Positions 17,734 to 38,062 of a stretch of 43,882 bases of DNA are shown one piece after another. The position numbers and the translations under genes were made by a program. Source of the DNA: a virus; IMG/VR virus record IMGVR_UViG_3300020474_000033, positions 1 through 43,882 of that record. One strand, written 5' to 3'. The notes beneath the pieces were generated by a model. It saw only the letters and a program-made list of their open reading frames with translations. It did no database searches and had not been told where the DNA came from. The first letter of the stretch is position 1; each line of letters begins with the position of its first letter.

Positions 17734-17757
17734 TATAAATAAAGTTGTAACTAAATA
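17734..17757 (+). promoter_or_regulatory. Double late promoter motif before the first fibre-region gene
   Basis: A perfect TATAAATA at 17734-17741 is followed by ACTAAATA at 17750-17757, in the 48-base gap before the GTG start at 17773. Two motifs 16 bases apart suggest strong or staggered late transcription of the structural genes downstream. Confidence 0.65.
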
Positions 17758-21351: not shown

Positions 21352-24300
21352 ATGGCACTAACTCGTCTTAAAAATATCATCACATCGAGGACTGGACGTA
21401 TTATATACGTCAACCCCGATGATTTTGATGCGTCAGATAGTTTTGACAATAGAGGTAACTCAGCGTTACGTCCATTCAAGACGTTGCAACGTGCGTTTTT
21501 AGAAGTATCGAGATTTTCATATAGAGTTGGTTTAAGTAATGACGAATTTGACGCATTCAGTATATACCTATATCCCTCAGAGTATGTTTTAGATAATAGA
21601 CCAGGTTTAACAGATTTTAACCAGATCCAACCATTCAATGAGAATAGTAACTTTGATTTAACGTCTGCATCCAATGAGCTTTACAAATTCAATTCAACTC
21701 GTGGTGGCATTATTGTACCCAGAGGTTGTTCCGTCGTGGGATCCGACCTCAGAAGAACTAAGATTGTACCTAAATATGTGCCGTATCCCACAGTACAAGG
21801 ATCCCTTGGTATAACTGCTGCTAACGAGCCTACTGCTACTGCAATCTTTAGATTAACTGGTGCGACATATTTCTGGCAGATGTCCTTCTTTGATGGGGAC
21901 AACAACGGTGTATTCTATAGAGACGATCTCTCACAGATAGCACCAAACTTCTCACATCATAAACTAACATGTTTCGAGTATGCTAATACTGCTGATCTAA
22001 ACTTATACTATCAAAAGATCTCAAAAGCATACGCAACGATTCCTGATTCCTCTGGTATCATAGCTCAAGACCAATTACAGGCAAGAGTCGAGGAAAACAG
22101 AATTGTAGGTCCGATCTCTGATGAATTTGCTGTATCACAGATCATAAGAAATGGACAAACAGCAACCGCATTTACCGTGGATGAGTTGGGTAACCCCAAG
22201 AACCACGGTTTCTCTGTTGGAGTAGCAGTTAATATATCTGGTGTAACAGGTCCTACTGAGCAAGATCAGTTACTATACAATGGATCATTCTTTGTAACGT
22301 CAGCACAGGGTAACCAGTTTACCTATCAAATGTCTGCTGAGCCATCTGGTAACGCTATTGGATCTAATATTCTTGTTAAGGTTGAGATTGACACAGTTGA
22401 CTCAGCATCACCATATGTATTCAACTGCTCTCTAAGATCAGTATGGGGTATCAATGGTATGCATGCTGATGGAGCAGAAGCAACTGGTTTCAAATCCATG
22501 GTTGTTGCCCAGTTTACAGGTATATCACTACAGAAAGACGACAGAGCATTCGTATTATATAACGCAACTACAGGTCAATATGAAGCACAAGCCGCAGGGT
22601 CTGGTGCACACATTAATGGTCTGGCAAAATATCGTAAGGGATGGCGTAACTGCCATATTAAAGCATCCAATGATGCATTTATACAGGTCGTTTCTGTGTT
22701 TGCTGTTGGATTTGGTGACCATTTCTTCTCTAGGAGTGGTGGTGACCTATCTATCACTAATAGTAACAGTAACTTCGGAAATACCTCTCTCAGATCTACT
22801 GGATTTAAGTCAGCAAGTTTCACCAAAGATAAGGCGGGACAGATTACGCACGTTATACCACCTAAATCCTTAGATGATGTAGAGGAAATCTCAGTTAACT
22901 GGGTGACTATCGATATTAACAAGACCAGAGCAGCAGCAGATCCAACAAAACTATTTTTATATGGTTACTCAGTAGAAACTGGCAAACCACCAAGTAAAGT
23001 CCAAGGCTATACTGTTGGTGCCAGAAGAGATGATGTCAACACACCTGACAGAGTTTATGTCTTGTTGGTAGCATCTGGTGCAAATGAGCCAACAACTCAT
23101 TACGCAGAGATTGCACCTTCAGGTCCTACTGTAACAGGCACATCACCTGGTGATGACGACTCTCCACTCAAGTGGGATGTTACACAAAGCAACTGGTATA
23201 TTCAAGTAAATGGTAGTGCAAACACAATTTACACTACACTACAGTCTAATACAACATATCAAAACTTAGGATTCACACCTACTACATTTGTAAGAAGAAT
23301 CCCTGATGCTAGAAACCTTGTTGACAGAATCTATCGTTATCGTTACGTCCTTGATAAAGACGCATTCCCAGTGCCTAGGACACCGATTACTGGTTTCGTT
23401 ATCGAGCCTAGATCATCAGAAACTAACTCTCCTGCATACTCGAGGACATATTACATTTATGCAGTCGAGACTTATCAAGAATTTGTTAGAGGTGTCACCG
23501 ATGGTATATACTATCTGACATTCCTTAATGCTTCAGTTAGCCCAACTACAACTAACTTCAACGACTTCGAGTTCTCACAACAGACAGTCGATCTCTACCC
23601 TGCATTTGACAGAGATAACCCAGTTGCAGACCCCTCTGCATCTATCTCTATCGCAGATAATGAAGTATTGGGATTAGTGAAGACCACTGATGGTGCATCA
23701 CCTACACCTAATGAGAATAAACAGTTGTCTATTACAAAAGAAACAACTCAATATTATCTACAGGAGTCGCAAAATAACTTAGGATACACTACAGCATCTA
23801 ACGTGTTGAATGGTATCTCAGTTACTGCACGAGCAGGTGAGGCAGAGGATAGGAAGATTCCTCTAAAACTAAATGCTGACAGTAGCGTCCAACCTGTATT
23901 AGTAGAGCTGAGACGATATTCAATCCTTAGAGCATCTGGACACACGTTTGAATACCTTGGTTTCGGACCAGGTAACTATTCAACTGCATTCCCATCTACA
24001 CAGGTGGAAGTATTGTCACCTGCTCAGGTTAGACTATCACAGTCACTAAAAGAAGCAGCAGGTGTTGCATACTACTCAGGTGTTAACAGTGATGGTGAAT
24101 TATTCGTTGGTAACCAGGTTATTAACCCAGTTACAGGTCAGATCACTAACGAAGATATTGCACAACTTAACGTGTTAGGTGAGGAAGGCACAACTATTGA
24201 GACATTCTCTGAGTTGGTCTTAACTGATAAACTAACTGTTATTGGTGGTGCATCTAACCAGTTAGAATCAGTATTCTCAGGTCCTGTTACCTTCCAGAAG

Positions 24301-24924
24301 AAAGTAACATCACAGGATGAGATCCAGTCATTAGAGTTTACATTCTCTAATAATGACGGCACGGTGCTGAGAAAAACATTCTTAGCTGAGGATGATGGAT
24401 CTGGGCTACCTGTTACACAGGCAGGATCAGCATTCAATACAGGAGACATGTGTTACAACATTGATTGGGCACCAGGTCAAGCACTTGGTTGGATCTATGA
24501 TAATAACACATGGTATAAGTTTGGTTTGAGTGATACCGCACCTATCACATCAAATCGTTATAGTGGCGTCACACACTATGGTGTTGGTATAGCACCCGAT
24601 GCTACAAATAGAATGAAGATTGGTGGTAACTTCTACATCGATGGTAACCTTGATGTATCAGGTAATTATGGATCAGCAGACAAATACACACTTGCAACTG
24701 GTATAGCAAACGCAAACAACGGCACAACATATAGTGGCGATGGAGCAACTGCAACCTTTGCTATCTCTGCAGGTCACACTTCATACTCACTCTTGGTATT
24801 CCTTAATGGAGTATGTCAAGTGCCAGGTGTTGACTATCAAGTGAGTGGAAACTCAGTTGATTTCTCTATAGGTACAGTGCCACAGTCAGGTGACACTATA
24901 CATGTAAGAGAGTTGGTTATCTAA
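21352..24924 (+). CDS. Large virion protein, probable tail-fibre/baseplate appendage
   Basis: A 1190-residue protein. The N-terminus (ALTRLKNIITSRTGRIIYVN, then NRGNSALRPFKTLQRAFLEV) is a right-handed beta-helix entry in which a GxxPFKTLQRA turn is typical. GCSVVGSDLRRTKIVPKYVP (about 122-141) reads like a pectate-lyase-type coil but no enzyme motif follows. The middle carries repeated strand-turn units (WGINGMHADGAEATGFKSMV), and the C-terminus (YSLLVFLNGVCQVPGVDYQV, then GTVPQSGDTIHVRELVI) is a common phage fibre ending. It is the longest frame here. Family members occur in cyanophage virions; its exact position on the particle is unknown. Confidence 0.65.
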   Translation: MALTRLKNIITSRTGRIIYVNPDDFDASDSFDNRGNSALRPFKTLQRAFLEVSRFSYRVGLSNDEFDAFSIYLYPSEYVLDNRPGLTDFNQIQPFNENSNFDLTSASNELYKFNSTRGGIIVPRGCSVVGSDLRRTKIVPKYVPYPTVQGSLGITAANEPTATAIFRLTGATYFWQMSFFDGDNNGVFYRDDLSQIAPNFSHHKLTCFEYANTADLNLYYQKISKAYATIPDSSGIIAQDQLQARVEENRIVGPISDEFAVSQIIRNGQTATAFTVDELGNPKNHGFSVGVAVNISGVTGPTEQDQLLYNGSFFVTSAQGNQFTYQMSAEPSGNAIGSNILVKVEIDTVDSASPYVFNCSLRSVWGINGMHADGAEATGFKSMVVAQFTGISLQKDDRAFVLYNATTGQYEAQAAGSGAHINGLAKYRKGWRNCHIKASNDAFIQVVSVFAVGFGDHFFSRSGGDLSITNSNSNFGNTSLRSTGFKSASFTKDKAGQITHVIPPKSLDDVEEISVNWVTIDINKTRAAADPTKLFLYGYSVETGKPPSKVQGYTVGARRDDVNTPDRVYVLLVASGANEPTTHYAEIAPSGPTVTGTSPGDDDSPLKWDVTQSNWYIQVNGSANTIYTTLQSNTTYQNLGFTPTTFVRRIPDARNLVDRIYRYRYVLDKDAFPVPRTPITGFVIEPRSSETNSPAYSRTYYIYAVETYQEFVRGVTDGIYYLTFLNASVSPTTTNFNDFEFSQQTVDLYPAFDRDNPVADPSASISIADNEVLGLVKTTDGASPTPNENKQLSITKETTQYYLQESQNNLGYTTASNVLNGISVTARAGEAEDRKIPLKLNADSSVQPVLVELRRYSILRASGHTFEYLGFGPGNYSTAFPSTQVEVLSPAQVRLSQSLKEAAGVAYYSGVNSDGELFVGNQVINPVTGQITNEDIAQLNVLGEEGTTIETFSELVLTDKLTVIGGASNQLESVFSGPVTFQKKVTSQDEIQSLEFTFSNNDGTVLRKTFLAEDDGSGLPVTQAGSAFNTGDMCYNIDWAPGQALGWIYDNNTWYKFGLSDTAPITSNRYSGVTHYGVGIAPDATNRMKIGGNFYIDGNLDVSGNYGSADKYTLATGIANANNGTTYSGDGATATFAISAGHTSYSLLVFLNGVCQVPGVDYQVSGNSVDFSIGTVPQSGDTIHVRELVI

Positions 24925-24946: not shown

Positions 24947-25849
24947 ATGTCTACTAAGATTAATGGTAATCAGATTGACGCTGCCACAAGAGCAATTATT
25001 ACTGCTCTAACTGTGACAGAGCAGATCAACCTGCCTGCCCTTACTCAAACAGCAATTAATGGTCTTGGTACACCTGCCTATGGTACTTTGGTTTATAACA
25101 CAACCGAAGACATGGCACAGATTTATCTTCAAGATGCTGCTGCAGGAGTGCCAGGTTGGGATGATGTAGGTGGTGGAGGACCTTCTGTTGGAGAAGATTC
25201 CATCGTCCGTACAAATGGACCTACAATCGGTGAGAATCTTACTGTAGGACCTATTGCAAATGGAGGAGTAGAGTTTACCAATGGTTTCACTGCAGGACCT
25301 ATTCAGATTGCGAGTGGAAATACAGTTACTATTGAAAACAATGCCACATGGTTTATCCTTGGTGGAGAAGAGAATGACCTAAAAGAGGGAGAGGTTGTGC
25401 AGGCAAAGTTTGCATCAACACCCCCAGATCGCTATCTAATTAGAAACAATAATTTAGTGCAGATACCTAACCTCGAAGTATCGATTGCACCTACACATAC
25501 AAACTCTAAAATTGTATTGATCGCAATGATTACAGGTAATGCTAGACACGTTACGTCATTTGGTTTCTTCCGTGATGGTAACCTAATTACTAGTGGACTC
25601 AACGGAAACTCCAACGTTGGTAGTGGATCTGTAGCGACTACATACACTGGTGACGACACTAGTGATCATATGTATTCGTGGCCAGTTAACTATCATGATA
25701 CACCTGGCACCACAAACGCAGTTACATATACTGTTGGTGCATCTGCATCATGGGGTGGGTCGATAAGAGATCTCTATATAAATGATAGATCTAGCAATGA
25801 CATGAGAAGTGTCAGCACACTTTTAGCACTAGAGGTGAGAGGTAACTAA
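24947..25849 (+). CDS. Tail-fibre-like structural protein
   Basis: A 300-residue protein with a clear GAGAGGAAG ribosome-binding site. It starts MSTKINGNQIDAATRAIITA, then has a YGTLVYNTTEDMAQIYLQD unit (residues about 45-63) typical of phage fibre proteins that precede an adhesive tip, and a Gly-rich hinge (DDVGGGGPSVGED). Residues 120-300 form a distinct beta domain (TVTIENNATWFILGG to LLALEVRGN) common at the C-termini of cyanophage structural proteins. It is probably a short fibre or tip. The stop overlaps the next start by one base. Confidence 0.65.
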   Translation: MSTKINGNQIDAATRAIITALTVTEQINLPALTQTAINGLGTPAYGTLVYNTTEDMAQIYLQDAAAGVPGWDDVGGGGPSVGEDSIVRTNGPTIGENLTVGPIANGGVEFTNGFTAGPIQIASGNTVTIENNATWFILGGEENDLKEGEVVQAKFASTPPDRYLIRNNNLVQIPNLEVSIAPTHTNSKIVLIAMITGNARHVTSFGFFRDGNLITSGLNGNSNVGSGSVATTYTGDDTSDHMYSWPVNYHDTPGTTNAVTYTVGASASWGGSIRDLYINDRSSNDMRSVSTLLALEVRGN

Positions 25850-26185: not shown

Positions 26186-26995
26186 ATGGCACTATTAAGA
26201 GTAAATACAATTCAAGATACGTCAGGTGTTAATGGTTTTAGTATCACTAACACTACCATCTCGATCAATGGTACATTGACTGTTAGTGATCTAGTAGTAA
26301 ACGGAGTTATCTCTGGATCATCATCTTATATCGTACCTTCACAGTCAGGTCAAGGTGGAAAGTTTATGACTACTGATGGATCTAATCCGTCATGGTCAGC
26401 ATTGACAACAAGATCTGGAATCAGATCCATGTCAGTGTTTACTGGTAATGGCACATGGTCTAGACCAGATGAATGTAAAAACATCATGGTAACATGTGTT
26501 GGTGCAGGTGGTGGAGGATCAGGTTATACTGAATCAGGTGGTGCAGGCGGTATGTCACAACGTCAAGTTGATGTGCAGAATGTCAGCTCAGTATCAGTAA
26601 CAGTAGGAAATCCTGGTGGTGGCACAAACTACTCAGGGTGTGGTGGTAATGGAAACACATCATCATTCGGTGGATATTGTAGTGCATCTGGTGGGGTAGG
26701 AGCTAATTGCTCTCAGCAACATGCAGGTGGATATGGTGGAAACGGTAGTGGTGGTCAACTGAATGTGCATGGTGGCGGGGGTAATGGTCATGGATCACAC
26801 CATAGTTATGGTAACTATTGCTCTGGTGTAAGTTATTATGGAGGTGGACAACCTGGTGGACACAACCAAGTAAACTGGTCACATAGACATGAATTACACG
26901 CAGCGTGGGGATCTGGTGGAAATGGATCTCGACATAGTAACAGAGGTGCCCGAGGTCGTGAGGGTATTGTTGTTGTGCATGAGTATTGGGGTTAA
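26186..26995 (+). CDS. Gly/His-rich tail-fibre adhesin, first of three paralogues
   Basis: A 269-residue protein. Residues 1-85 are a fibre attachment module (ALLRVNTIQDTSGVNGFSI, then SSSYIVPSQSGQGGKFMTTD and GSNPSWSA). Residues 85-110 form GNGTWSRPDECKNIMVTCVG. Residues 110-269 are Gly-rich with fixed aromatics and His (AGGMSQRQVD, VSVTVGNPGGGTNYSGCGG, HGSHHSYG, WSHRHELHAAWG) and end VVVHEYWG. Gly-rich adhesins at fibre tips (T2 gp38 type) choose host receptors, which is the likely role. The same three modules recur in the next two genes. Confidence 0.7.
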   Translation: MALLRVNTIQDTSGVNGFSITNTTISINGTLTVSDLVVNGVISGSSSYIVPSQSGQGGKFMTTDGSNPSWSALTTRSGIRSMSVFTGNGTWSRPDECKNIMVTCVGAGGGGSGYTESGGAGGMSQRQVDVQNVSSVSVTVGNPGGGTNYSGCGGNGNTSSFGGYCSASGGVGANCSQQHAGGYGGNGSGGQLNVHGGGGNGHGSHHSYGNYCSGVSYYGGGQPGGHNQVNWSHRHELHAAWGSGGNGSRHSNRGARGREGIVVVHEYWG

Positions 26996-26998
26996 CTA

Positions 26999-28588
26999 AT
27001 GAGTTTATTAAAAGTATCATCTATTAATGATCTAACCGACACAGGTGGATTTTCTCTATCTAATGGTGGGGTAACTGCTACACTTCCTTTAGTAGTAGGT
27101 AATATTATAATCAACGGAGCGATATCAGGTAATTCTGGACATATCATTCCAAGACAGGCAGGAAATGCCGAGAAATTATTGCAGACTGATGGATCTAACC
27201 TTTCATGGGTAGAAGCAGCAGGACTTGCAGGTATTAGAAGTATGCAGGTGTGGACTGGTAACGGTACTTGGAATAGACCGTCAGACTGCACTAGTATCAT
27301 GGTCACAGCCGTCGGAGCAGGTGGTGGTGGATCAGGATATTGTGAGGCAGGTGGAGCAGGAGGAATGTCTCAACGTGTCATCGATGTAAACAACGTAACA
27401 TCTGTATCAGTAACAGTAGGAAATCCTGGCGGAGGTACAAACTACGCAGGATGTGGTGGAAACGGTAACTCTTCAAGTTTCGGCTCCTATGTGACTGGTG
27501 GAGGTGGAGGAGGATCAAATTGTATTCAGCAGCACGAAGGTGGTTTAGGGGGAGAAGGTATTGGTGGTACACTAAACGTATTTGGTGGAGGAGGAAACGC
27601 CCACGGATCCCATCATTCCTACGGAAACCACGCAGGAGGAGCAAGTTACTACGGAGGTAGTCAGCCGTCTTCTCATAACCAAGGTAACTATAGTCACAGA
27701 CATGAAGCTCACTCAGCATGGGGTGCAGGTGGTAACGGATCACAGCACGGTAATAGAGGTGCTAGTGGTAGACAGGGAGTTGTCGTAGTCCACGAATACT
27801 ACGGTAAACCATCATCACCAGATACCAGTTATGGTCAATCATCTGGCAACCCTGCCCAGTCTGCAGAGGAAATCAAGATTAGAAATCCTGGTGCAGGTGA
27901 TGGAGTTTATTGGATTAACCTACCTGGCGTAGGAGCAACACAAATCTATTGTCTAATGGATAATAGATGGTTAGGTGGTGGATGGATGATGGGTATGAAA
28001 GCAACTAGGGGCACCACATTTAACTGGGATTCTAGTTACTGGACATCTAACAACACTCTCAACACAGGATCAACAAATACCAACGATGGTGATGCTAAGT
28101 TTGAGGTTATGAATAGATTCCTTGCCAAGGACATCATGGGAATCTGGCCAGATATTGGTAATGGTGGATGTATTCCCGACACCAATAGAGGATGGACATG
28201 GTTTGAGACAGACTTCAACACAGGATATGGTAGAGGTGGTAGGATTGAGCCTATTAACTTCTGGAATCAGGTAGATAGATTCTATAAATCTAATGCCAAC
28301 GAATTTTGTGGTATTGGACAATTCTCTGGACAGTCACACGTTAGATTCTACGGATTTAACTACAGAAACAATCCAGGTTGGGCACGCACACGTTGGGGAT
28401 TCGGATGGAATGAAAACGGTGGTGGGTCTGGTGGATATCCAGAAGCGGATATGAACTCTGATGACGTATCAGGTGGTATTGGTATGAGTGGTAACTTTGG
28501 TAGTTACTCAGCAGGAGATCGTATCAACTGTTGCCAGAACCGTAACGGAATAAATAGATCAGCAAGGATTGAATTGTACTTCAGATGA
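26999..28588 (+). CDS. Gly/His-rich fibre adhesin with a C-terminal fibrinogen-like lectin domain
   Basis: A 529-residue protein. Residues 1-268 repeat the modules of the flanking paralogues (SLLKVSSINDLTDTGGFSL; GAGGGGSGYCEAGGAGGMSQ; YSHRHEAHSAWGAGG; VVVHEYYG). A linker (KPSSPDTSYGQSSGNP) leads to residues about 285-529, read as a fibrinogen-C/intelectin-like domain: GDGVYWINLPG, IYCLMDNRWLGGGWMMGMKA, a Trp/Asn-rich middle and the CCQNRNGINRSARIELYF ending. Such domains bind sugars in animals and occur in phage receptor-binding proteins. It is probably the receptor-binding tip for a surface glycan. The gene overlaps the next by 4 bases. Confidence 0.75.
   Translation: MSLLKVSSINDLTDTGGFSLSNGGVTATLPLVVGNIIINGAISGNSGHIIPRQAGNAEKLLQTDGSNLSWVEAAGLAGIRSMQVWTGNGTWNRPSDCTSIMVTAVGAGGGGSGYCEAGGAGGMSQRVIDVNNVTSVSVTVGNPGGGTNYAGCGGNGNSSSFGSYVTGGGGGGSNCIQQHEGGLGGEGIGGTLNVFGGGGNAHGSHHSYGNHAGGASYYGGSQPSSHNQGNYSHRHEAHSAWGAGGNGSQHGNRGASGRQGVVVVHEYYGKPSSPDTSYGQSSGNPAQSAEEIKIRNPGAGDGVYWINLPGVGATQIYCLMDNRWLGGGWMMGMKATRGTTFNWDSSYWTSNNTLNTGSTNTNDGDAKFEVMNRFLAKDIMGIWPDIGNGGCIPDTNRGWTWFETDFNTGYGRGGRIEPINFWNQVDRFYKSNANEFCGIGQFSGQSHVRFYGFNYRNNPGWARTRWGFGWNENGGGSGGYPEADMNSDDVSGGIGMSGNFGSYSAGDRINCCQNRNGINRSARIELYFR
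28549..28556 (+). promoter_or_regulatory. Late promoter-like motif AATAAATA inside the lectin-domain gene
   Basis: AATAAATA lies 28 bases before the ATG at 28585, within the coding end of the upstream gene. Spacing fits the other late motifs, though it may be chance. Confidence 0.4.
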
Positions 28589-29394
28589 GCACACTTAGAG
28601 TTAACAATGTAAAAGACCTTGCAGGTATCTCAGGGTTTGAATTAAGCACTGGTGGTATTATTGCCAATGCTACATTGATCGTGGGAGATATTACCATCAA
28701 CGGTAGTGTTACTGGATCATCAAAATATATTATCCCTAACATGTCAGGTCAGTCAGGAAAATTCCTGCAGACTGATGGCACAAACCTTTCATGGGTAGAA
28801 GCATCATCCGTCTCTGGATTTAGATCAATGCAGGTCTGGACATCTAATGGCACATGGAGCAAACCTGCTGACTGTAAAACTATCATGGTTACAGTATTAG
28901 GTGCAGGTGGCGGAGGATCAGGATATTGCGAAGCAGGTGGTGCAGGTGGTATGTCACAGAGAGTTATCGATGTGCAAAATGTCAGCTCAGTATCTGTTAC
29001 AGTAGGAAATCCTGGTGGCGGTACTAACTACTCTGGATGTGGTGGCAACGGCAACTCATCTAGTTTTGGTGGTTATTGCTCAGCAGGTGGTGGTGTTGGT
29101 GCAAATTGCTCACAACAACACGCAGGTGGATATGGTGGTAACGGCTCAGGTGGTGACCTAAACGTCCACGGAGGTGGTGGTAATGGTCATGGATCCCATC
29201 ACTCATATGGTAACCACGCAGGTGGTAGATCATACTACGGTGGATCGCAACCCTCATCACACAACCAAGGCAACTATTCTCATAGACACGAAGGTCATAG
29301 TGCATGGGGAGCAGGTGGTAACGGATCACAGCACGGTAATAGAGGTGCCTCTGGACGTGTTGGCGTGGTAGTAGTCCACGAATATTATGGCTAA
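28585..29394 (+). CDS. Gly/His-rich tail-fibre adhesin, third paralogue
   Basis: A 269-residue protein, exactly the length of the first paralogue. It begins STLRVNNVKDLAGISGFELS, then VTGSSKYIIPNMSGQSGKFL and TWSKPADCKTIMVTVLG. The Gly-rich region (GCGGNGNSSSFGGYCSAGGG; HGGGGNGHGSHHSYGNHAGG; YSHRHEGHSAWG) ends VVVHEYYG. It is nearer to the middle gene in its last third and to the first gene in its QQHAGGYGGNGSGG stretch, suggesting recombination among the copies. It overlaps the lectin-domain gene by ATGA. Confidence 0.7.
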   Translation: MSTLRVNNVKDLAGISGFELSTGGIIANATLIVGDITINGSVTGSSKYIIPNMSGQSGKFLQTDGTNLSWVEASSVSGFRSMQVWTSNGTWSKPADCKTIMVTVLGAGGGGSGYCEAGGAGGMSQRVIDVQNVSSVSVTVGNPGGGTNYSGCGGNGNSSSFGGYCSAGGGVGANCSQQHAGGYGGNGSGGDLNVHGGGGNGHGSHHSYGNHAGGRSYYGGSQPSSHNQGNYSHRHEGHSAWGAGGNGSQHGNRGASGRVGVVVVHEYYG

Positions 29395-29421: not shown

Positions 29422-29829
29422 ATGAAAAAAGCAATTATCCACGGAGAGTCTGGAATTATCACAGACATCTGTGAAGAAGGAGACGAATTTCAGATCTACG
29501 ATGGTGCTGACGCAACTATGAAGTGGATGGAAGTCCCTGACGACACAACTAACGAGCATCGTATGGTCAACGGTGTCATCTACCCAAGAGTAGAATTAGA
29601 AAATCAAGCAGAAGCATATCTTGTTGCACGCACGATTGCCTATGGTTCTGTGGGTGAGCAATTAGACATGCTCTATAAAGACCAAGTTAATGGCACAACA
29701 ACATTTAAAGACCACGTTGCAGCAGTAAAAGCAAACGTACCTAGTCCAAGTAGTGCACCTGCATTTACAGAGGATGTTAAGAAAGTGCAAGTAACAGGCA
29801 GAATGGCTTGGGATCCATACCCAAGTTAA
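29422..29829 (+). CDS. Conserved small tail-region protein
   Basis: A 135-residue protein. Residues 1-45 form a compact acidic domain (MKKAIIHGESGIITDICEEG), and residues 60-105 read QAEAYLVARTIAYGSVGEQL then DMLYKDQVNGTTTFKDHVAA. The YGSVGEQLDMLY pattern is common in small phage proteins encoded beside tail fibres. It is the last gene of the structural stretch; the halogenase island begins 25 bases later at its own promoter. It may be a fibre assembly factor or minor virion protein (inference). Confidence 0.6.
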   Translation: MKKAIIHGESGIITDICEEGDEFQIYDGADATMKWMEVPDDTTNEHRMVNGVIYPRVELENQAEAYLVARTIAYGSVGEQLDMLYKDQVNGTTTFKDHVAAVKANVPSPSSAPAFTEDVKKVQVTGRMAWDPYPS

Positions 29830-29853: not shown

Positions 29854-31329
29854 ATGAAGATTTACATTATTGGTGGTGGGTCATCTGGATGGATGACAGC
29901 AACCACAATGCTGACAAAATTTCCCGAAGCAAACATCACAGTCGTAGAGTCGCCTGATACACCCCCTGTTGGTGTAGGTGAGTCTACGACTCAGTATTTT
30001 AGGATATGGGCAGAATATGTAGGACTCAAAGATGAAGAGTGGATGCCTGCATGTGATGCCACATATAAGATTAGTGTAAGATTTAGTAACTTTAATAAGG
30101 TAGATGACACACCATGGCAATATCCATTTGGTTATCATATCCAAGATCTACCTCAACCTGATGTTTATTTTTGGAATGCATATAAGAATAACTGGAGTAA
30201 TGATAAATTTGCCCGAGAATATTTTGTATCAGCAGAAGCAGCAGAAAATAATTTACTACCCATCAAGCATCCAAACTTTAATCTTAAAAAGAATACTGGA
30301 TTTCATTTTGATGCAGTAAAGTTTGCACACTGGTTAAAAGACAACAAATGCCAGAAGGTAAATCATATTATTGGTAAGGTAGATGATTTTGAGAAGGATG
30401 GAGACGAAATAAAATATCTATGGATAGATGAGAAACAACATGAAGCAGATTTATATTTTGATTGCACTGGATTTGCATCAGTACTTAATAAGTCTGAGTG
30501 GTTAGATTATAGTGAGTGGTTACCAAATGATACAGCATGGGTAACACGTCTAGACTATAGGGAAGGACATAAGAAAGAGGATCTCAAATCATATACACAG
30601 TGCACAGCATTGAGTAGTGGATGGGTGTGGACAGTGCCCACATTTGCCAGAATTGGGACAGGATATGTATTCTCTAGTAAGCATCAAGATCATCAGAGTG
30701 CATTAACAGAGTTTTCAAAATTTCTTAAGTATGATACTGATGGATTTAGGAAAATACATTTCAAGACAGGCAGAAAGAAAGAAGGATGGGTTGGTAATGT
30801 AGTGTCTATTGGTTTATCATATGGATTCCTAGAGCCATTGGAATCTAATGGTCTGTTATCAACACATGATAACTTGTTAAGATTCTGTAGGACGTGGAAA
30901 CCGAACACCACTCAAATGATGAGAGATACATATAACAAGGCGATAGCATTTGGTTTCGATGGGTTTGCAAGTTTCGTTGCTCTTCATTATGCTCTTACTC
31001 AACGTAGGGATTCTTCTTATTGGAGATATGTCTCAAGTATTAGATATCCTGATAAGGGGATAAATGAAGCAGCAAGAGTCACAATGATGGAAGAGTCACA
31101 TAATTTTTCCAGTAAACTAAACTTCAATCACAGCAGTGGTGCTTCACTGTTTTGTGTCATGGCAGGTCATGGATGGAATCCATTTAATGATGTCATTGAA
31201 AGTGAGATTAATTTTCATGGTGGAATACCTGATGACTCACATCTAAACAGTTGGACACATGAGTGGAATCGTGATAGACTGGGAGTTAATCCTTTAGATT
31301 ATTATAATAGGACATTGTATGCAGTATAG
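29854..31329 (+). CDS. Flavin-dependent tryptophan-halogenase-type enzyme 1
   Basis: A 491-residue protein of the Trp_halogenase family. It has the FAD motif IIGGGSSGWM (residues 5-14), GVGESTTQYFR (40-50), DATYKIS with Lys72 at the position of the catalytic Lys of PrnA/RebH, the halogenase-specific W257-V-W259 (WVWTVP) that keeps the site from acting as a monooxygenase, and EPLESNG with Glu330 matching the catalytic Glu. These enzymes use FADH2, O2 and halide to form a hypohalous acid that the Lys passes to the substrate. Marine cyanophages carry relatives, including the iodinating VirX1. The substrate is unknown. The gene overlaps the next by 11 bases. Confidence 0.85.
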   Translation: MKIYIIGGGSSGWMTATTMLTKFPEANITVVESPDTPPVGVGESTTQYFRIWAEYVGLKDEEWMPACDATYKISVRFSNFNKVDDTPWQYPFGYHIQDLPQPDVYFWNAYKNNWSNDKFAREYFVSAEAAENNLLPIKHPNFNLKKNTGFHFDAVKFAHWLKDNKCQKVNHIIGKVDDFEKDGDEIKYLWIDEKQHEADLYFDCTGFASVLNKSEWLDYSEWLPNDTAWVTRLDYREGHKKEDLKSYTQCTALSSGWVWTVPTFARIGTGYVFSSKHQDHQSALTEFSKFLKYDTDGFRKIHFKTGRKKEGWVGNVVSIGLSYGFLEPLESNGLLSTHDNLLRFCRTWKPNTTQMMRDTYNKAIAFGFDGFASFVALHYALTQRRDSSYWRYVSSIRYPDKGINEAARVTMMEESHNFSSKLNFNHSSGASLFCVMAGHGWNPFNDVIESEINFHGGIPDDSHLNSWTHEWNRDRLGVNPLDYYNRTLYAV

Positions 31330-32923
31330 ATCATTTTGTATTGTAGGTGGTGGGTCATCTGGTTGGATGGCAGCAGCAACAATGAAGAAGGCATTCCCAG
31401 AGTGTGAGGTCAGTCTCATACAACCTGAGGGTAGAAATATTATTGGTGTAGGAGAGTCTACTTTAGGACATATCAATAGGTTTTTTAGATTTCTTGGATT
31501 ACATGACAAGGAGTGGATGCCATATTGTAATGCCACATATAAATCATCTATTGCATTTAAGAATTTTAGGACAGGAGAGGGAGAGAGATTTCAATATCCA
31601 TTCGGACGTATAGATCGCAACGATTATCGTAGTGATTATATGACATTCTTTGAGTTGCAAGTAAAGTATCCACACTTGTATCCACCCGAAGAGTTTGCAC
31701 GTTTCTTTAATCCAAATACTATTCTGGCAGAAGAGAATAAACTAACGTCTGATTATATTTCCGAAGAAATGCGTAATTGGAATTTTGGTCAAGACACTGC
31801 ATACCACATGGATAGTCACAAGTTTGGTGAGTATCTACAAAAGAAATTTCCTGAGGTAAAAGTATACACAGGTAATGTAATCAATGCCACTCGAGGTGAG
31901 ACTGGTGACGTTATCACTATGAATACAGATAGTGGTGATAGAATCATGGCAGATCTTTATATTGATTGCACAGGTTTTAAATCCCTGATCCTAGAAAATA
32001 TGATGGGATCGAAGTTTGTATCATTTAATGATGTATTGTTTAATGACACAGCGTGGTCAGCAAAGGTAGAGTATTCAGATCGTATCATACAGATGGATAA
32101 CTATACAGATTGTGTAGCAATGTCTAATGGATGGATCTGGAATATACCACTATGGGATAGAGTGGGGATGGGTTATGTATTCAGTCAGAAATATCTTGAC
32201 CCTGACATAGCACAGGCAGAGTTTATGGGTTATATAGCACAACGCTATTCGCCCAAAATTGCCGACAATGCTGATTATCGCCTGATTAATATCAGACATG
32301 GTAAGAGAGAGAAAGCATGGGTCAATAATGTTGTAGGTATTGGACTAGCATATGGTTTCCTCGAGCCACTAGAGTCTACTGGACTCATGACTACACATGA
32401 GAATCTATTATATCTCGTGGATAGTCTCAAACGTCGTCCTATTACAACTAAGATTGATATCGATAGTTATAACTACACTGTAGATCATGCGATTGAGTCT
32501 ATGAAATACTTTATCGCTATGCATTATTTGTTATCTCAACGTCAAGATACAAAGTATTGGGTAGATGCTACTCAAAACACATCTATGTTTAGTAATCATG
32601 ACTTAACACAATACATGAATGATTGCCTAGGATGGCATTCTATGCTAGAATCACGAAGGGAATACTTCCAACTCTATGAAGGGTTAAGAAAGAATTTCTG
32701 GGCAGATAATAAATTTGATGGACTAATTTATATCGCAGCAGGTCAAGCATACAGACCAATTAATGAGCATAGTGTGGATGAAGCACACTTTATTTTCCCA
32801 CGTCGCAAAGGTGAGGTGGAAAGAGTGCATCAAGATTGGCAGCGTGACCGTAAAGCGATATATAATCAGGTGAGTCAACTACCAACACACTATGAGTATC
32901 TAAGGGATAACATCTATGGTTAA
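31319..32923 (+). CDS. Flavin-dependent tryptophan-halogenase-type enzyme 2
   Basis: A 534-residue paralogue of the preceding gene. It has IVGGGSSGWMAAA (residues 8-20), GVGESTLGHINR (43-54), NATYKSS with Lys75, WIWNIP with Trp272 and Trp274, and EPLESTG with Glu352. All key halogenase residues are kept, so both copies look active. It is longer by about 40 residues, through an insert near 85-130 (GRIDRNDYRSDYMTFFELQV). The start lies inside the end of gene 1, so translation is coupled. Two halogenases together suggest two sites or two substrates, or a hetero-oligomer. Confidence 0.85.
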   Translation: MQYRSFCIVGGGSSGWMAAATMKKAFPECEVSLIQPEGRNIIGVGESTLGHINRFFRFLGLHDKEWMPYCNATYKSSIAFKNFRTGEGERFQYPFGRIDRNDYRSDYMTFFELQVKYPHLYPPEEFARFFNPNTILAEENKLTSDYISEEMRNWNFGQDTAYHMDSHKFGEYLQKKFPEVKVYTGNVINATRGETGDVITMNTDSGDRIMADLYIDCTGFKSLILENMMGSKFVSFNDVLFNDTAWSAKVEYSDRIIQMDNYTDCVAMSNGWIWNIPLWDRVGMGYVFSQKYLDPDIAQAEFMGYIAQRYSPKIADNADYRLINIRHGKREKAWVNNVVGIGLAYGFLEPLESTGLMTTHENLLYLVDSLKRRPITTKIDIDSYNYTVDHAIESMKYFIAMHYLLSQRQDTKYWVDATQNTSMFSNHDLTQYMNDCLGWHSMLESRREYFQLYEGLRKNFWADNKFDGLIYIAAGQAYRPINEHSVDEAHFIFPRRKGEVERVHQDWQRDRKAIYNQVSQLPTHYEYLRDNIYG

Positions 32924-33782
32924 AAAACTATGGAAGAAAATTAAAGGTAAGTTTCAGAAACCGTGGATCCGTTTTTATTCAATGGATGCAGGGGTTGCTG
33001 AATTTTATCCTTTATATCCATCTCAGAAATTGAAACGTCAATGGCGAATCAATACACTGAAGGAGCAACATAAGAATAAATCTGATTGCCCTGTTGTAGC
33101 ACTCAAAGAAACCTTTGATAAGCTAAAGATGGAGGACAAAGGTATCAAGGAGCATGCAGCAACTTGCCCTGCACTCACTCAGATCATGGACAGTGGTTGG
33201 ATTTTGCCTGCACCTGCCGACTTCGCTATCCGTCCCAATAAAGAGAAAGGCACATTCCAATGGGTGACACGTCAGTTATTTGTTGGTGGTAAATATGTCA
33301 CGTCTCATATTGAGAGACAGACAGATGGAATGCGTGATCTTGTAAGTAAAGGACAGGATACGTTAGGACAGGTGGTGAAACTAGAGACACCGTGGAGGGT
33401 TATGGCACACCCCGATGTTTGCATCCTACAGATACCAGTATCTTATAGCGATGACATGCGTTTCTCAGCACCTACAGGGATCGTTGATCCATCATTCTCA
33501 TATGAGATCAACTTGCAACTGTTTTGGCATGCTATGGAGGGAGACCACATAGTTGAAGCGGGCACACCATTGTGTCAATGGATTCCAATTCCACGCAAAT
33601 GGTTGGACACAAAAGAGTTTGATGTCATTATTGAGACCGCCAATAATGAGGACTTTAAAGCAGAAAGGATGATGGATTATCTCAAGACTAAATCGTTTAT
33701 TGAGAATACCAAACTAAATGACCGCATTAAAGATCACAAGAAAATTAACTCACTAAATAAAAATCTAAAGAGGTTTGATTAA
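32916..33782 (+). CDS. Conserved protein of unknown function in the halogenase island
   Basis: A 288-residue protein overlapping halogenase 2 by 8 bases. Residues 1-20 are basic (VKKLWKKIKGKFQKPWIRF). Residues 90-125 have DSGWILPAPADFAIRPN, and the middle has ETPWRVMAHPDVCILQIPVS and GIVDPSFSYEINLQLFWHAM. WVTRQLFVGG and a GDHIVEAGTPLCQWIPIPR strand-turn suggest a beta-sandwich like that of DUF6065-type proteins, but I am not sure of the family. It lacks obvious metal, flavin or nucleotide motifs. Its position suggests that it binds or presents the substrate (speculation). Confidence 0.6.
   Translation: MVKKLWKKIKGKFQKPWIRFYSMDAGVAEFYPLYPSQKLKRQWRINTLKEQHKNKSDCPVVALKETFDKLKMEDKGIKEHAATCPALTQIMDSGWILPAPADFAIRPNKEKGTFQWVTRQLFVGGKYVTSHIERQTDGMRDLVSKGQDTLGQVVKLETPWRVMAHPDVCILQIPVSYSDDMRFSAPTGIVDPSFSYEINLQLFWHAMEGDHIVEAGTPLCQWIPIPRKWLDTKEFDVIIETANNEDFKAERMMDYLKTKSFIENTKLNDRIKDHKKINSLNKNLKRFD
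33752..33759 (+). promoter_or_regulatory. Late promoter-like motif ACTAAATA inside the halogenase island
   Basis: ACTAAATA lies 22 bases before the ATG at 33782, inside the end of the upstream coding sequence. If used, it would let the oxygenase genes be transcribed late and apart from the halogenases. Confidence 0.45.
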
Positions 33783-34150
33783 TGGAAGCAGAAAATCTTA
33801 GTAGTCCAACTACGGATGAAGTAAAACTCAATGAGTTAGCAGGTGTATCACCTGAGGAAAAACAAGGTATCTATTGTGATGAGGATGGTAACCCCATCAA
33901 ACTCACATACGATCAGTTAGTCCAAGACTTTTGCGATCAGCATAAAGATTGCATGGCAGACTATAAGAAGATGGGAGAGGCACTAGACAATATGTCTTAC
34001 TCATCTACTGTTACTCGTGTATCTCTTGAAGGATTACAGGAGAAAAAGGATAAACTAAACAAACTACAAGGTGCAGTTGAAGCACTATATCTTTATAAGA
34101 TGCATGTTGACCCAACTGTAACTGACAAAGATTTTACATTTGAAGAATAA
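33782..34150 (+). CDS. Small protein of unknown function in the halogenase island
   Basis: A 122-residue acidic protein, starting in a TAATG overlap. Residues 75-105 are a probable coiled coil (RVSLEGLQEKKDKLNKLQGA). Short charged N- and C-termini flank it. The next gene begins one base after its stop. It has no recognised enzyme motif and may be an accessory or scaffold subunit (inference). Confidence 0.6.
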   Translation: MEAENLSSPTTDEVKLNELAGVSPEEKQGIYCDEDGNPIKLTYDQLVQDFCDQHKDCMADYKKMGEALDNMSYSSTVTRVSLEGLQEKKDKLNKLQGAVEALYLYKMHVDPTVTDKDFTFEE

Positions 34151-34831
34151 ATGATTAAATGTGATTATTGGTTTCCTCGTGGCATTTGGCACAAGGAAGA
34201 CTGTGGACTTGATACAGATCATTTTAATGAATTTGCCACTATACATCGTGGATCGATGTCAGGTAGGAAAGCATCGAATGAGGGTGGATTCCAGTCATTT
34301 GACTGGGGTAGTGAAAGAATGCACACAATTAAACCACTATCTAACTTAACAGAAGCAGTTTATGATGTCGTAGATGTTGCATGTCAAGATCTAGGTTTCA
34401 AAGACTACGCTATGTTGTTAACAAATGGGTGGTTAAACATAAATGGACCTGGTGATCTTAATCATGTACATACACATCCTGGTGCAATGTTTGCAGGAGT
34501 TTATTACTCAAAAATGCCCGAGAAATGTGGTGGTATCACGTTTATGAGACCTCTTGATGAGTTGCATATGTTTAAATCATGGGGCACAGGACATAACTAC
34601 GACCATGGCACTAACCCATTAAACTTTGAAGTAGCAGCATATGACCCTAAACCAGATCAGTTGTTTATATTTCCTGCAAACTTGATGCACAAGGTCGAAA
34701 CAAACAGGGGTAGTGAAGAAAGAATCTCTTACTCATTCAACATTACATTATACTCTAAGCATATTAATTATGGTAGTATCCAGAAGTCTATCGAATCTTT
34801 TAACAACAACGTATCTGAATCGTCTGACTGA
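34151..34831 (+). CDS. 2OG-Fe(II) oxygenase-type protein (HxH variant)
   Basis: A 226-residue protein of the 2OG-FeII_Oxy_5 type. WLNINGPGDLNHVHTHPGAM then FAGVYYSKMP is the conserved entry: His105-V-His107 occupies the place of the iron-binding HxD, with His109 following. The distal side reads FIFPANLMHKVETN with His180, then ERISYSFNITL. These enzymes hydroxylate or otherwise oxidise a substrate using O2 and 2-oxoglutarate. An HxH rather than HxD triad is non-standard, so another first ligand, or loss of activity, is possible. It opens a run of five such genes. Confidence 0.7.
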   Translation: MIKCDYWFPRGIWHKEDCGLDTDHFNEFATIHRGSMSGRKASNEGGFQSFDWGSERMHTIKPLSNLTEAVYDVVDVACQDLGFKDYAMLLTNGWLNINGPGDLNHVHTHPGAMFAGVYYSKMPEKCGGITFMRPLDELHMFKSWGTGHNYDHGTNPLNFEVAAYDPKPDQLFIFPANLMHKVETNRGSEERISYSFNITLYSKHINYGSIQKSIESFNNNVSESSD

Positions 34832-34835
34832 TACA

Positions 34836-35444
34836 ATGACTAGTCGAGGGTTTCCGTGGTATTTTCTACCACATGATGTGACCTTTGGCAGTGGTTATAA
34901 CTATGCATTTGGCGATGTTAATCTGAATACAGATGACACGGATCTGAAATCCCCACCTAAACAAACTAGTGTGGGATGGACTCATGTGTTATATCATGAT
35001 GGCAACCCAGTCTCACAGTATTATGATCTCTTTATTCCTATTGTAGATCACATTCAAGATAGATTAGGTGTTGGTATCTTTGAGTTGTTTAGACTCAGGT
35101 TGGCAATGCTACATCATAATCATTTCGTAGAAGATTATAATACACCACATACAGATCATGATAGTAAACACATGACTGGCATATATTATTTCCACGATAG
35201 CGATGGGGATACTATTCTATTCGATCAACTCGATGACCCCAACGGTGATGTTAACCAACGGATCACCGATATATTTGCACAGGAGTATACAATAGCAGAG
35301 AGACATAAACCAGAGAAGAATAAGTTTATATTGTTTGATGGAAATAGATTCCACGCATCATCTAATCCTAGAATTAATCAGTATAGGATGGTGTTAAACT
35401 TTAACTTCAGACAGATGCCCGATGACATTCTTACTTCCGCTTAA
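34836..35444 (+). CDS. 2OG-Fe(II) oxygenase-type protein
   Basis: A 202-residue protein from the ATG at 34836; an upstream extension of the frame lies inside the previous gene and is rejected. The N-terminus (SRGFPWYFLPHDVTFG) is typical of phage oxygenases of this size. PHTDHDSKHMTGIYYFHD gives the facial triad His105-x-Asp107, and FDGNRFHASSNP has His173 with Arg in NQYRMVLNFNF. All elements of an active dioxygenase are present. It overlaps the next gene by 23 bases. Confidence 0.8.
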   Translation: MTSRGFPWYFLPHDVTFGSGYNYAFGDVNLNTDDTDLKSPPKQTSVGWTHVLYHDGNPVSQYYDLFIPIVDHIQDRLGVGIFELFRLRLAMLHHNHFVEDYNTPHTDHDSKHMTGIYYFHDSDGDTILFDQLDDPNGDVNQRITDIFAQEYTIAERHKPEKNKFILFDGNRFHASSNPRINQYRMVLNFNFRQMPDDILTSA

Positions 35445-36144
35445 ATTATTTGATAGAAATTGGGATCATGATTTGCCATTTTATTATGAGCAGGTCATGG
35501 ATAAGAAAGAGTGTGATGATATATGCACATGGAAAGATGTTGAATATTGCCTTAACTTGCCCAATTTTTTTGACATCGATGTAGTAAGTAAACACCAGAT
35601 ACAAAAGATAAATCCACAGAAACATCCAAGATCGTGGGCAGCACAAGGATGGGAAGAGAAGAGCGAGTTGTTTCAACTATTCAAGGAAGGTCACACATTC
35701 ATTATTAATAACTATTCTTATAGAAATGAGAAGGTGATGGATATGTTAGATCAATGGTCAAGTATATTCTCAGGTGATAGTCAGTTTCAAATATATTGTG
35801 GGATGGGACAGTCAAATAGTTTCTATATACATGAGGACTTGCCAAGTAATTTTATTGTGCAGTTGCGAGGTAAAACTAAATGGAAAGTATTTAACGAAAG
35901 GAGAGCAACATTTGTTTCTCAAGCACCACCAGGTGATGGACAGGTAGACTATGATAGTTTTACACCTGCTATCGATGTGGAGTTAAATGCAGGTGACGCA
36001 CTATACATACCACCACGTTGTTATCATCAAGCACAACCAAGCGAAGAGAGAATATCTCTAAGCATACCAGTCCACCACTATTCTTTATATCATGCTCACA
36101 GCATTACCAGACCAGTCGATTGGAAATGGTATAACCTCTATTAA
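35422..36144 (+). CDS. JmjC/cupin-type oxygenase
   Basis: A 240-residue protein with a cupin core: FYIHEDLPSNFIVQLRGKTK (HxD followed by the QLRGKTKWKVF strand), and DVELNAGDALYIPPRCYHQA then QPSEERISLSI. This order, HxD, RGxKxW, GD-LYxPxxxxH, is that of the JmjC/Cupin_8 (ribosomal oxygenase-like) enzymes, which hydroxylate proteins or small molecules. The N-terminal 110 residues carry a helical domain (KECDDICTWKDVEYCL). Its end overlaps the next gene by 53 bases, more than usual, implying tight coupling. Confidence 0.75.
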   Translation: MTFLLPLKLFDRNWDHDLPFYYEQVMDKKECDDICTWKDVEYCLNLPNFFDIDVVSKHQIQKINPQKHPRSWAAQGWEEKSELFQLFKEGHTFIINNYSYRNEKVMDMLDQWSSIFSGDSQFQIYCGMGQSNSFYIHEDLPSNFIVQLRGKTKWKVFNERRATFVSQAPPGDGQVDYDSFTPAIDVELNAGDALYIPPRCYHQAQPSEERISLSIPVHHYSLYHAHSITRPVDWKWYNLY

Positions 36145-36805
36145 TCCATATCCATTCATACTTAAATCACAATATAATCTCTCAGATATATGGAAAGATA
36201 TCAAGGGAGAGACAGATATCTTTTTGGATTTTATTGAGAGTCCAGACTCTACATATAAAAACTCAGCACTAGAGAAGGGGGGCACATCATCCGTGGGTAG
36301 ATGTAGAGTTGACCCACCACACGGATGGAAAATTTTTAGTGACCTTACTAACAATCATATCCCTAGTGTAGTAGATCAAATTTGGGACATGTGGTCACTT
36401 AAAGGTGTCTATCGTAATATGACTGAGAGTTGGATTAATAGACACCCACCCAAGGCAACAACCTTAGAGCATCATCATCACAATGTAACCGTTGCAATCG
36501 TTGCATACTTAGATGTGCCAGAAGACAGTGGTAACCTGCAAATTCTTAACCCTTTGCATACATTTAAGTATGCAGAACCAGTAGATGATGGATATGAAAT
36601 GCCTAGACAAGATCACTGGATTGAGATACCAGTTAAGACAAATGATATAGTATATTTTCCTGGTTGGTTAAAGCATAGGACAGGAGCAAACAACAGTGAT
36701 ACCAATCGATATGTATTAACTATGAATGTCACAGCATATGAAATGACTAACATAGATAGAGGTGGATATGATGAGTTTAATAATACTATTGGTTTTATAG
36801 AATGA
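36092..36805 (+). CDS. 2OG-Fe(II) oxygenase-type protein with a His cluster
   Basis: A 237-residue protein. NMTESWINRHPPKATTLEHH then HHNVTVAIVAYLDVPEDSGN gives the 2OG-FeII_Oxy_5 entry with a run of His (EHHHH) where the metal-binding HxD or HxH should fall. FPGWLKHRTGANNSDTNRYV then LTMNV gives the distal His and an Arg for 2-oxoglutarate. The exact first ligand is ambiguous. It follows the JmjC-type gene with a 53-base overlap and precedes the last oxygenase with a 4-base overlap. Confidence 0.7.
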   Translation: MLTALPDQSIGNGITSINPYPFILKSQYNLSDIWKDIKGETDIFLDFIESPDSTYKNSALEKGGTSSVGRCRVDPPHGWKIFSDLTNNHIPSVVDQIWDMWSLKGVYRNMTESWINRHPPKATTLEHHHHNVTVAIVAYLDVPEDSGNLQILNPLHTFKYAEPVDDGYEMPRQDHWIEIPVKTNDIVYFPGWLKHRTGANNSDTNRYVLTMNVTAYEMTNIDRGGYDEFNNTIGFIE

Positions 36806-37515
36806 AGCATCCATTAATTAAAATATATGATACTGACATACTGGACGATGATATTTGTCGTCAAGCGATTGAGTTACCTTATTATCATGGACGCCAAGAT
36901 TTGCCTGCACCTAATCTGGAAGAGGTAGATCTTAGAGGGACATACTACACACATGATTTCTATAGTGTAGATCATCATGGAAGTAAACCTTTCGATCAAT
37001 GCTCAGGTCATCATCTATATCAATGGGTGTTAGATAGACTCGAAGTTTGCTCACATGTGCCCGTACCTGCTCGTGATACGTTATACAGTGCATATATGAA
37101 TGTATTGAAACATGGTGATGCACCTCGTATACATTGCGATGCACCGTCATGGGTTGATAATCAATGCACTATGATAGTATATTTTAATCAGAAGTGGAAT
37201 CCTAACTTTGGAGGTGAAACTATATTCTATGATGACCAGTTAGATATTGTGCACGCAGTCGTCCCAAAACCAGGTAGAGTGGTCATTTTCGATGGTAGGA
37301 TACCACACTCAGGACGCACACCAACACCCTATTTCTTATGGAATAGATATATGATGGCATTCAAGTTTATGGGTAAAGAGGTGAGGAATGAGTTACTTGA
37401 CTGGGGAAGTAAGAATCACCCATATAAAGATGATGACATGGGTATAGCAGGATTTAGTCCTAGTAAAGTCAAGGAGTTAATGTATGAGCAAACCCTGTTA
37501 TTCTGGACAAAATAA
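36802..37515 (+). CDS. Prolyl-4-hydroxylase-like 2OG-Fe(II) oxygenase
   Basis: A 237-residue protein with a prolyl-hydroxylase-type core: RIHCDAPSWVDNQCTMIVYF with His111-x-Asp113, WNPNFGGETIFYDD, then KPGRVVIFDGRIPHSGRTPT with His169 and Arg172 and a final YMMAFKFMG strand. All triad and 2-oxoglutarate ligands are present. YFNxxWNPNFGGETxFY is characteristic of the P4Hc domain in phages. It is the last oxygenase of the island; the substrate could be a peptide proline or a small molecule. Confidence 0.85.
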   Translation: MKHPLIKIYDTDILDDDICRQAIELPYYHGRQDLPAPNLEEVDLRGTYYTHDFYSVDHHGSKPFDQCSGHHLYQWVLDRLEVCSHVPVPARDTLYSAYMNVLKHGDAPRIHCDAPSWVDNQCTMIVYFNQKWNPNFGGETIFYDDQLDIVHAVVPKPGRVVIFDGRIPHSGRTPTPYFLWNRYMMAFKFMGKEVRNELLDWGSKNHPYKDDDMGIAGFSPSKVKELMYEQTLLFWTK

Positions 37516-38042: not shown

Positions 38043-38048
38043 TAGTAT

Positions 38049-38056
38049 GTTATAAT
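38049..38056 (+). promoter_or_regulatory. Extended -10 promoter TGTTATAAT-like before the candidate small RNA
   Basis: The sequence GTATGTTATAAT has TATAAT at 38051-38056 with a TG extension. It shares its core with the promoters at 29838 and 38154. RNA should begin near 38063, where a strong hairpin starts. Confidence 0.5.
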
Positions 38057-38062
38057 AATTAT

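Follow-up and report, generated by a model that had tools for sequence, protein, structure and literature searches.

A halogenase and oxygenase cassette paired with glycine-rich fibre-tip genes in a T4-like cyanophage

The IMG/VR virus record IMGVR_UViG_3300020474_000033, analyzed here over its entire 43,882 bases (the window), stems from a T4-like cyanophage near P-TIM40 (Kyanoviridae) and harbors a nine-gene cassette encoding two halogenases (hal1 and hal2), two proteins termed U (unknown A) and B, and five putative 2-oxoglutarate (2OG) oxygenases (ox1, ox2, J, ox4 and ox5). An original prediction, made from the sequence alone, had placed the substrate of these enzymes in the host, as a metabolite, a peptide or a component of the cell surface. 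The cassette it recognized is, as judged from sequence comparisons, real and conserved; its usual partner is however the receptor-binding fibre tip of the phage itself, encoded by Gly_rich_2 genes (G1 to G3) outside the block then described, and this constant partner lends the proposed substrate no support. We favor a role of the cassette in modifying the fibre tip that the phage itself makes over one in host-metabolite tailoring, and place the probability of this at roughly one half. The observations behind it are the enzyme families, the frequent pairing with G, the joint exchange and the predicted fold of the tip.

Pairing and joint exchange with the fibre tip

Upstream of the cassette lie, in order, a phrog_529 tail fibre gene (T), a phrog_7459 gene (t), a small gene without family, the three G genes and a phrog_1787 gene (P), the last separated from the cassette by a 24-base gap. 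According to the Gly_rich_2 profile and the predicted fold, G is a predicted gp38/Pam3-like receptor-binding protein: the G3 model superposes on the Pam3 fibre (7ypx, also the top Foldseek match) with a Z-score of 20.2 and a root-mean-square deviation (rmsd) of 2.5 over 182 positions at 28% identity, a match from structure alone, with no solved structure retrieved by a G sequence profile at 0.001. Pam3 gp24 has been described as a receptor-binding protein, compared to S16 gp38, whose distal tip is glycine-rich (PMC9608196; literature statements here and below refer to the listings, abstracts and passages available to us). The G3 model matches this fold, whereas the present phage differs by three tandem G copies followed by modifying enzymes, and neither 'halogen' nor 'hydroxyl' is mentioned in the available parts of the Pam3 paper (PMC9608196). 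Across 48 aligned G proteins, His 226, 233, 235 and 238, Tyr 149 and 164, and Arg 253 and 258 are conserved in at least 90%, and Trp 241 in 79%.

The cassette itself is maintained as a unit. P-TIM40 has the identical gene order, and four of its genes, compared by tblastn, are 81-91% identical at the protein level. Related orders are present in syn9/Syn10, S-RIM44, Sf-FP1 and numerous contigs of IMG/VR. A halogenase-U-oxygenase layout persists in syn9, S-RIM44 and further phages, with varying halogenase number and varying number and order of oxygenases. The genes are thus not scattered among related phages, congruent with the conserved adjacency originally anticipated.

Searching with G3 (tblastn), 19 of 19 annotated phage records, representing about ten distinct phages and duplicates, were found to have a same-strand halogenase no more than about 2.3 kb further downstream. 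Anchored scans of IMG/VR each covered the best 80 loci, on overlapping contigs ranked by likeness to window proteins or to cassette-phage alignments. Starting from G, all 64 loci with at least 4.5 kb downstream contain a halogenase (H) within 4.5 kb, and 12 of the 16 dropped for short downstream sequence still show one. Starting from H, G is located within 6 kb in 50 of the 60 loci with at least 4 kb upstream, the other 20 being too short on that side, while t as anchor left 48 sufficiently long loci, 47 with both G and H, and L154 with G alone. The genes around the ten H loci lacking G were inspected, and ten proteins were scanned from seven of these loci (L053, L088 and L108 left out), placing L041, L081 and L106 near tail fibre or baseplate families; for L082, L087, L099 and L075, any family matched was of unknown function. 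In a survey of 27 chosen whole-genome records, 10 of them taken from a halogenase listing, a strong G (above 250 bits) is present in eight, with the halogenase beside it in 8/8.

The surroundings of the pair suggest that G and H move jointly between genomes, through at least three context changes. Grouping of 274 loci by shared sequence resulted in 146 clusters, 108 of which hold G followed by H on the plus strand (loci with a minus-strand G, such as P-RSM6 and S-SZBM1, were skipped). Upstream sequence of 3.5 kb or more is available for 89 of these G-H clusters; the pair comes after the T/t fibre genes in 48 and has other surroundings in 41. Two of the latter, S-RIM44 and Sf-FP1, were annotated singly, and in both the module comes after a 10-12 kb gene (tail fibre or structural protein) next to gp13-gp15. 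On a halogenase tree of 86 rows, five context changes are needed, at least three of them on starred branches, the tree being a quick one (faster model, three short halogenases dropped, one long-branch pair warning).

An exchange is also apparent in the Syn1/S-RIM44 group, comprising five cassette records and six cassette-free ones (KU594607, KX349292, KX349295, KX349297 and two of Syn1). The 7 kb gp13-gp17 flank is common to the group, the six cassette-free records matching at 96.6% over 91%. Within the group, the cassette query matches just the five other S-RIM44 records, and these five alone, among the matches listed, hold at least 80% of the fibre query, with a 7% piece in Syn1; the cassette-free records display a single halogenase place at 29-30% identity. 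As judged from the one flank compared, the group represents one exchange between two haplotypes (fibre and cassette, or neither) rather than eleven observations.

Certain tip genes deviate from the common form. The C-terminal part of G2 (27821-28588, phrog_1325) may resemble a fibrinogen/COLFI-type domain, with a COLFI E-value of 0.074 below the cut-off; no Pfam family was recovered over cut-off for this tail, and no solved relative (best E 0.22). The second G gene of syn9 (L004:13150-14422) is split over frames and contains a repeated stretch, and one S-CREM1 copy (record 54494-55291) has five in-frame stops, both probably tip copies in decay or recombination. A link between having one or two halogenases and G residue 241 was viewed by eye and dropped.

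Predicted enzymes of the cassette

All nine open reading frames claimed between 29854 and 37515 were recovered on the plus strand, and the tight coupling ascribed to them is borne out by the coordinates, most junctions overlapping or abutting: hal1/hal2 share 11 bases, hal2/U 8, U/B 1, ox2/J 23, J/ox4 53 and ox4/ox5 4, and B/ox1 abut. The best start of ox2 is ATG 34836, matching the annotated P-TIM40 homologue and leaving a 4-base gap after ox1; the alternative GTG 34713 would overlap ox1. Ratios of nonsynonymous to synonymous substitution versus P-TIM40 are 0.07-0.20, suggesting purifying selection on every one of the nine genes.

Profile and motif content predict that hal1 and hal2 are members of the flavin-dependent Trp_halogenase/VirX1 group. 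Both exceed the profile cut-off of 21 bits (scores in Table 1), and alignment reveals the GxGxxG motif (GGGSSGW) and the catalytic Lys column (invariant K75, hal2 numbering) in the two proteins. The WxWxIP-type motif reads WIWNIP in hal2 and, slightly changed, WVWTVP in hal1, so that the intact motifs reported earlier hold apart from this last detail. The nearest solved structure to both is the viral iodinase VirX1 (PDB 6QGM), along the entire length of which hal2 aligns. VirX1 originates from Cyanophage Syn10 (PMC8407142). Since Syn10 and syn9 are equal in halogenase tblastn matches, and the printed VirX1 chain corresponds, on comparing the letters by eye, to syn9 gp42, which is the second of the halogenases in the homologous cassette, VirX1 appears to belong to the same kind of cassette as hal2. 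The description of the pathway as undescribed therefore needs amending at this point, with the Syn10 halogenase of this same position already solved and assayed, and otherwise stands. VirX1 differs in that free aromatics were the substrates on which its catalysis was examined; neither a native substrate nor the gene neighborhood is discussed in the literature passages at hand. The lack of a visible flavin reductase, noted for the window, extends to whole genomes: PF01613, the family searched for, was detected in 0/8 cassette phages versus 13/14 control genomes.

Halogenase-like frames of 367-393 residues without the middle profile stretch are found in P-TIM40 (record 183734-184855) as well as in S-SSM5, S-ShM2 and S-SSM7, possibly a reduced second lineage.

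For the five consecutive 2OG-Fe(II)/JmjC genes, the family assignments hold in part. ox1, J (cut-off 22), ox4 and ox5 pass their Pfam cut-offs, while ox2 scores 23.8 bits, under its cut-off of 27, and is supported by its phrog_274 match. The HxD...H metal motif is seen in ox2, J (H137, D139, H202) and ox5; the usual HxD/E is however not present in the domains of ox1 (sole HxE outside the domain) and ox4 (none), which have His runs instead, as does the matched stretch of 2RG4. The carboxylate ligand of these two PF13759 oxygenases may be missing, as it is in 2OG-dependent halogenases.

A search with J against solved structures returned the histidyl-hydroxylase NO66 and the arginine hydroxylase YcfD only (7e-5 to 2.5e-4), with which J shares the JmjC_2 domain in addition to the metal motif. 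J differs in its size, 240 residues with the match ending at 217. Members of the ribosomal oxygenase (ROX) family have dimerization and winged-helix domains after the JmjC core; because J is so short, there is no room for these additional C-terminal domains, and ROX membership was rejected.

Oxygenases gather near fibre genes also in genomes without this cassette. Of 14 genomes searched, the 12 with a long T match were kept (Syn1 and S-PM2 out), none with this cassette and three (P-SSM2, S-SSM5, S-ShM2) with a halogenase elsewhere. Counting weak matches too, 34 of the 117 merged phrog_81/phrog_274 places in these genomes lie up to 12 kb downstream from the fibre gene, versus 7.5 expected (binomial p = 4.6e-14, overstated because the genomes are related), P-SSM2 contributing 0/22. 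Oxygenase genes directly before G were moreover observed in several loci, e.g. L155, L163, L209 and L222.

The window contains a sixth 2OG-oxygenase-like gene (phrog_274) at 41511-42047, past a DNA methyltransferase gene. Names attached to such genes vary: 'DNA endonuclease V', a label of phrog_274, has been put on RefSeq cyanophage 2OG oxygenases such as P-TIM40 gp051 and gp054, and 'minor coat protein' on syn9 oxygenase genes, which looks like label carry-over. The phrog_274-type genes within the cassette are ox2 and ox5, with homologues in L003 and L004.

Of the two proteins left unrecognized originally, B remains without a clear family, and no Pfam family was obtained over cut-off. U on the other hand belongs to phrog_7084 and is predicted to adopt a dUTPase-like fold (Foldseek E 3e-4), its best match aligning at an rmsd of 4.9 over 128. 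It differs from dUTPases in being longer (288 residues) and in lacking a sequence-family match, with no Pfam family over cut-off and no dUTPase family listed for six U-family rows at E up to 5; assignment as a dUTPase was rejected for want of this sequence family. DUF6065 was likewise discarded as a relative, appearing at only 0.081 in one of six members. The S-CREM1 homologue of U is annotated as a triphosphate nucleotidohydrolase.

Candidate substrates

Fibre-tip modification is favored because G and H are paired, move jointly and are naturally exchanged together, and because the tip model matches the Pam3 fibre; in addition, the only relatives of J found by sequence among solved structures are protein hydroxylases, His, Tyr and Arg of G are conserved, and oxygenases cluster near the fibre. 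G1-G3 would presumably be made late, along with the upstream fibre genes. The two halogenases, using reduced flavin adenine dinucleotide (FADH2) of the host and seawater bromide, iodide or chloride as halogen source, would then halogenate exposed Tyr, Trp or His during folding or before fibre joining, and the 2OG oxygenases, including the NO66/YcfD-like J, would add hydroxyl groups to residues such as His or Arg in the same glycine-rich loops. U may, through its dUTPase-like fold, bind cofactor or substrate. Tips altered in this manner would differ in their attachment to the surface of the cyanobacterium, or would withstand damage. In this scheme we infer the timing of expression, the tip as substrate, the residues changed and the benefit. 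No proposal of fibre modification by these enzymes was found in the literature available to us.

The cassette could instead ride along in a tip region that is an exchange hot spot, functionally unconnected to the tip genes and with its enzymes serving another purpose. The region does vary between phages, 2OG oxygenases gather near the fibre even without the cassette, and the halogenase of S-B64 and S-H35 lies far from G; mere cargo is nevertheless rather unlikely, considering that the pairing outlasts at least three context changes and is kept in all testable loci of the best-80 G scan, and that ACG-2014b and S-RIM8, which have the T fibre and no G above 50 bits, are without any halogenase. 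Tailoring of a host metabolite, as originally suggested, would entail halogenation and hydroxylation of a small molecule, e.g. for host protection or to block competitors. It is congruent with the iodination and bromination of many aromatics by VirX1 (PMC8407142) and with suggestions of pyrrolnitrin-type protection or metabolite effects (PMC2984593, PMC10452541, PMC9964418). We regard it as unlikely, however: the partner of the cassette is a structural gene, and the annotations of the cassettes read name no gene of a biosynthetic pathway, save a short 'ferrochelatase' in syn9 and S-RIM44, leading us to reject a pyrrolnitrin-type or other metabolite pathway.

Modification of surface molecules of the host or of lysed cells, for instance stopping reabsorption of progeny, would explain the tip linkage by both matching the same receptor, and the S-SSM7 halogenase shares a block behind a fibre gene with genes for heptose and carbamoyltransferase functions. 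The FADH2, Fe(II) and 2OG required by these enzymes are however intracellular, and profile scans revealed no sugar genes in the window cassette, rendering this option improbable. Least credible is an action on DNA, with a pyrimidine nucleotide as the substrate of U, and bases altered by the oxygenases and halogenases. The predicted fold of U and a DNA methyltransferase gene downstream (40230-41090) hint at such a role, but U is missing from the cassette-bearing P-RSM6, S-WAM1 and S-SZBM1 genomes, no TET/JBP-type family is represented among the oxygenases, and the linkage is to fibre tips rather than replication genes; as the enzyme families do not fit, this candidate was rejected.

Several findings weigh against modification of the fibre tip. 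The pairing rates hold for relatives of the present type, since the scans rank by likeness to the window. In the 27-genome survey, a distant G (about 100 bits) occurs in three, with a halogenase elsewhere in S-B64 and S-H35 and none in the S-RIM12 genome, and the 16 genomes without G above 50 bits (none or about 20-bit traces) are evenly divided, eight with and eight without a halogenase. The Syn1 enzyme is located in the transfer RNA/talC region. A structural role may account for the residues conserved in G. Halogenases and multiple 2OG oxygenases of cyanophages have long been listed as auxiliary metabolic genes, with antibiotics, DNA repair and nitrogen among the guesses (PMC2984593, PMC10452541, PMC9964418 and PMC9146016 included), all of which point away from the fibre, and the broad range of aromatics accepted by VirX1 is non-protein (PMC8407142). 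From virions of S-SZBM1, mass spectrometry lists gp51-gp54 of the fibre run, including the homologues of t (gp51) and T (gp52), and not gp46, gp48 and gp49 (PMC9146016, Table 1), of which gp48 and gp49 are G proteins and are named in neither the text nor the table of that paper; this could stem from poor peptides, from shifted masses, from a low copy number or from true absence. Long tail fibres are furthermore stated to be absent in S-SZBM1, S-WAM1, P-RSM6 and P-TIM40 (PMC9146016). No modified residue is reported in the literature passages available. In S-CREM1 virions, mass spectrometry found only 14 proteins (PMC9964418).

Judged by gene positions, the fibre link is common and not universal, as Syn1, S-B64 and other halogenases outside the cassette illustrate. 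The S-B64 gene adjoins an SbcC-like (gp46) gene, that of P-SSM2 lies beside opposite-strand genes annotated for L-shaped tail fibre assembly, and that of Sf-CH11 is a few genes past a 10-kb structural gene.

We propose more tentatively, and with somewhat greater doubt than confidence, that tailed phages mature receptor-binding proteins by halogenation and hydroxylation, exchanging the cassette together with the tip, and that the native substrate of VirX1 is the glycine-rich tip of Syn9/Syn10. The tip pairing offers one concrete and quickly testable substrate for VirX1 and for the halogenases and oxygenases of cyanophages; if true, post-translational chemistry would be one way in which marine phages vary their binding to hosts.

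Feature coordinates and flanking signals

Table 1. Features of the fibre and cassette region, in window coordinates.
Feature	Coordinates	Strand	Basis
Late-promoter-like site (T4-type), TATAAATA	17734..17741	+	upstream of fibre genes
T, tail fibre protein	21352..24924	+	phrog_529, 1760 bits
t, small fibre-associated protein	24947..25849	+	phrog_7459
G1, predicted glycine-rich fibre-tip protein	26186..26995	+	PF21722 50.8 bits (cut-off 24.3); phrog_863
G2, predicted glycine-rich fibre-tip protein with extra C-terminal domain	26999..28588	+	PF21722 31.7 bits (cut-off 24.3); phrog_1325
G3, predicted glycine-rich fibre-tip protein	28585..29394	+	PF21722 44.1 bits (cut-off 24.3); AlphaFold2 pLDDT (predicted local distance difference test) 83
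P, possible fibre chaperone	29422..29829	+	phrog_1787; role by position
hal1, predicted flavin-dependent halogenase	29854..31329	+	PF04820 309 bits; best solved structure VirX1 6QGM, 1.9e-84
hal2, predicted VirX1-type flavin-dependent halogenase	31319..32923	+	PF04820 326 bits; VirX1 1.6e-136, full length
U (unknown A), predicted dUTPase-like fold	32916..33782	+	phrog_7084; AlphaFold2 pLDDT 92; dUTPases at Z about 9-10
B, small protein	33782..34150	+	open reading frame; no clear family
ox1, 2OG-FeII_Oxy_5 type oxygenase	34151..34831	+	PF13759 73 bits
ox2, 2OG oxygenase	34836..35444	+	phrog_274 3e-37; HxD...H
J, JmjC_2 (NO66/YcfD-like) oxygenase	35422..36144	+	PF08007 60 bits; NO66 7e-5, YcfD 1.2e-4
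ox4, 2OG-FeII_Oxy_5 type oxygenase	36092..36805	+	PF13759 58 bits
ox5, 2OG-FeII_Oxy_3 type oxygenase	36802..37515	+	PF13640 39 bits

The product of P, which we take to resemble a fibre chaperone, has no Pfam family over cut-off and no PDB match. The octamer TATAAATA, which we assume to be the T4-type late-promoter motif, is not enriched in the window (4 versus 4.1 expected by chance), and no further full match occurs from 17741 to the end of the cassette; its placing upstream of the fibre genes is suggestive by place alone. Totals of sigma-70 and terminator sites are not clearly above chance. At 38029-38146, before a helicase gene, we observed a perfect TTGACA-16-TATAAT arrangement with TG ahead of the second hexamer, followed by a 7-pair terminator-like hairpin, and from these sequence signals the next transcription unit seems to begin after the cassette, near this position.

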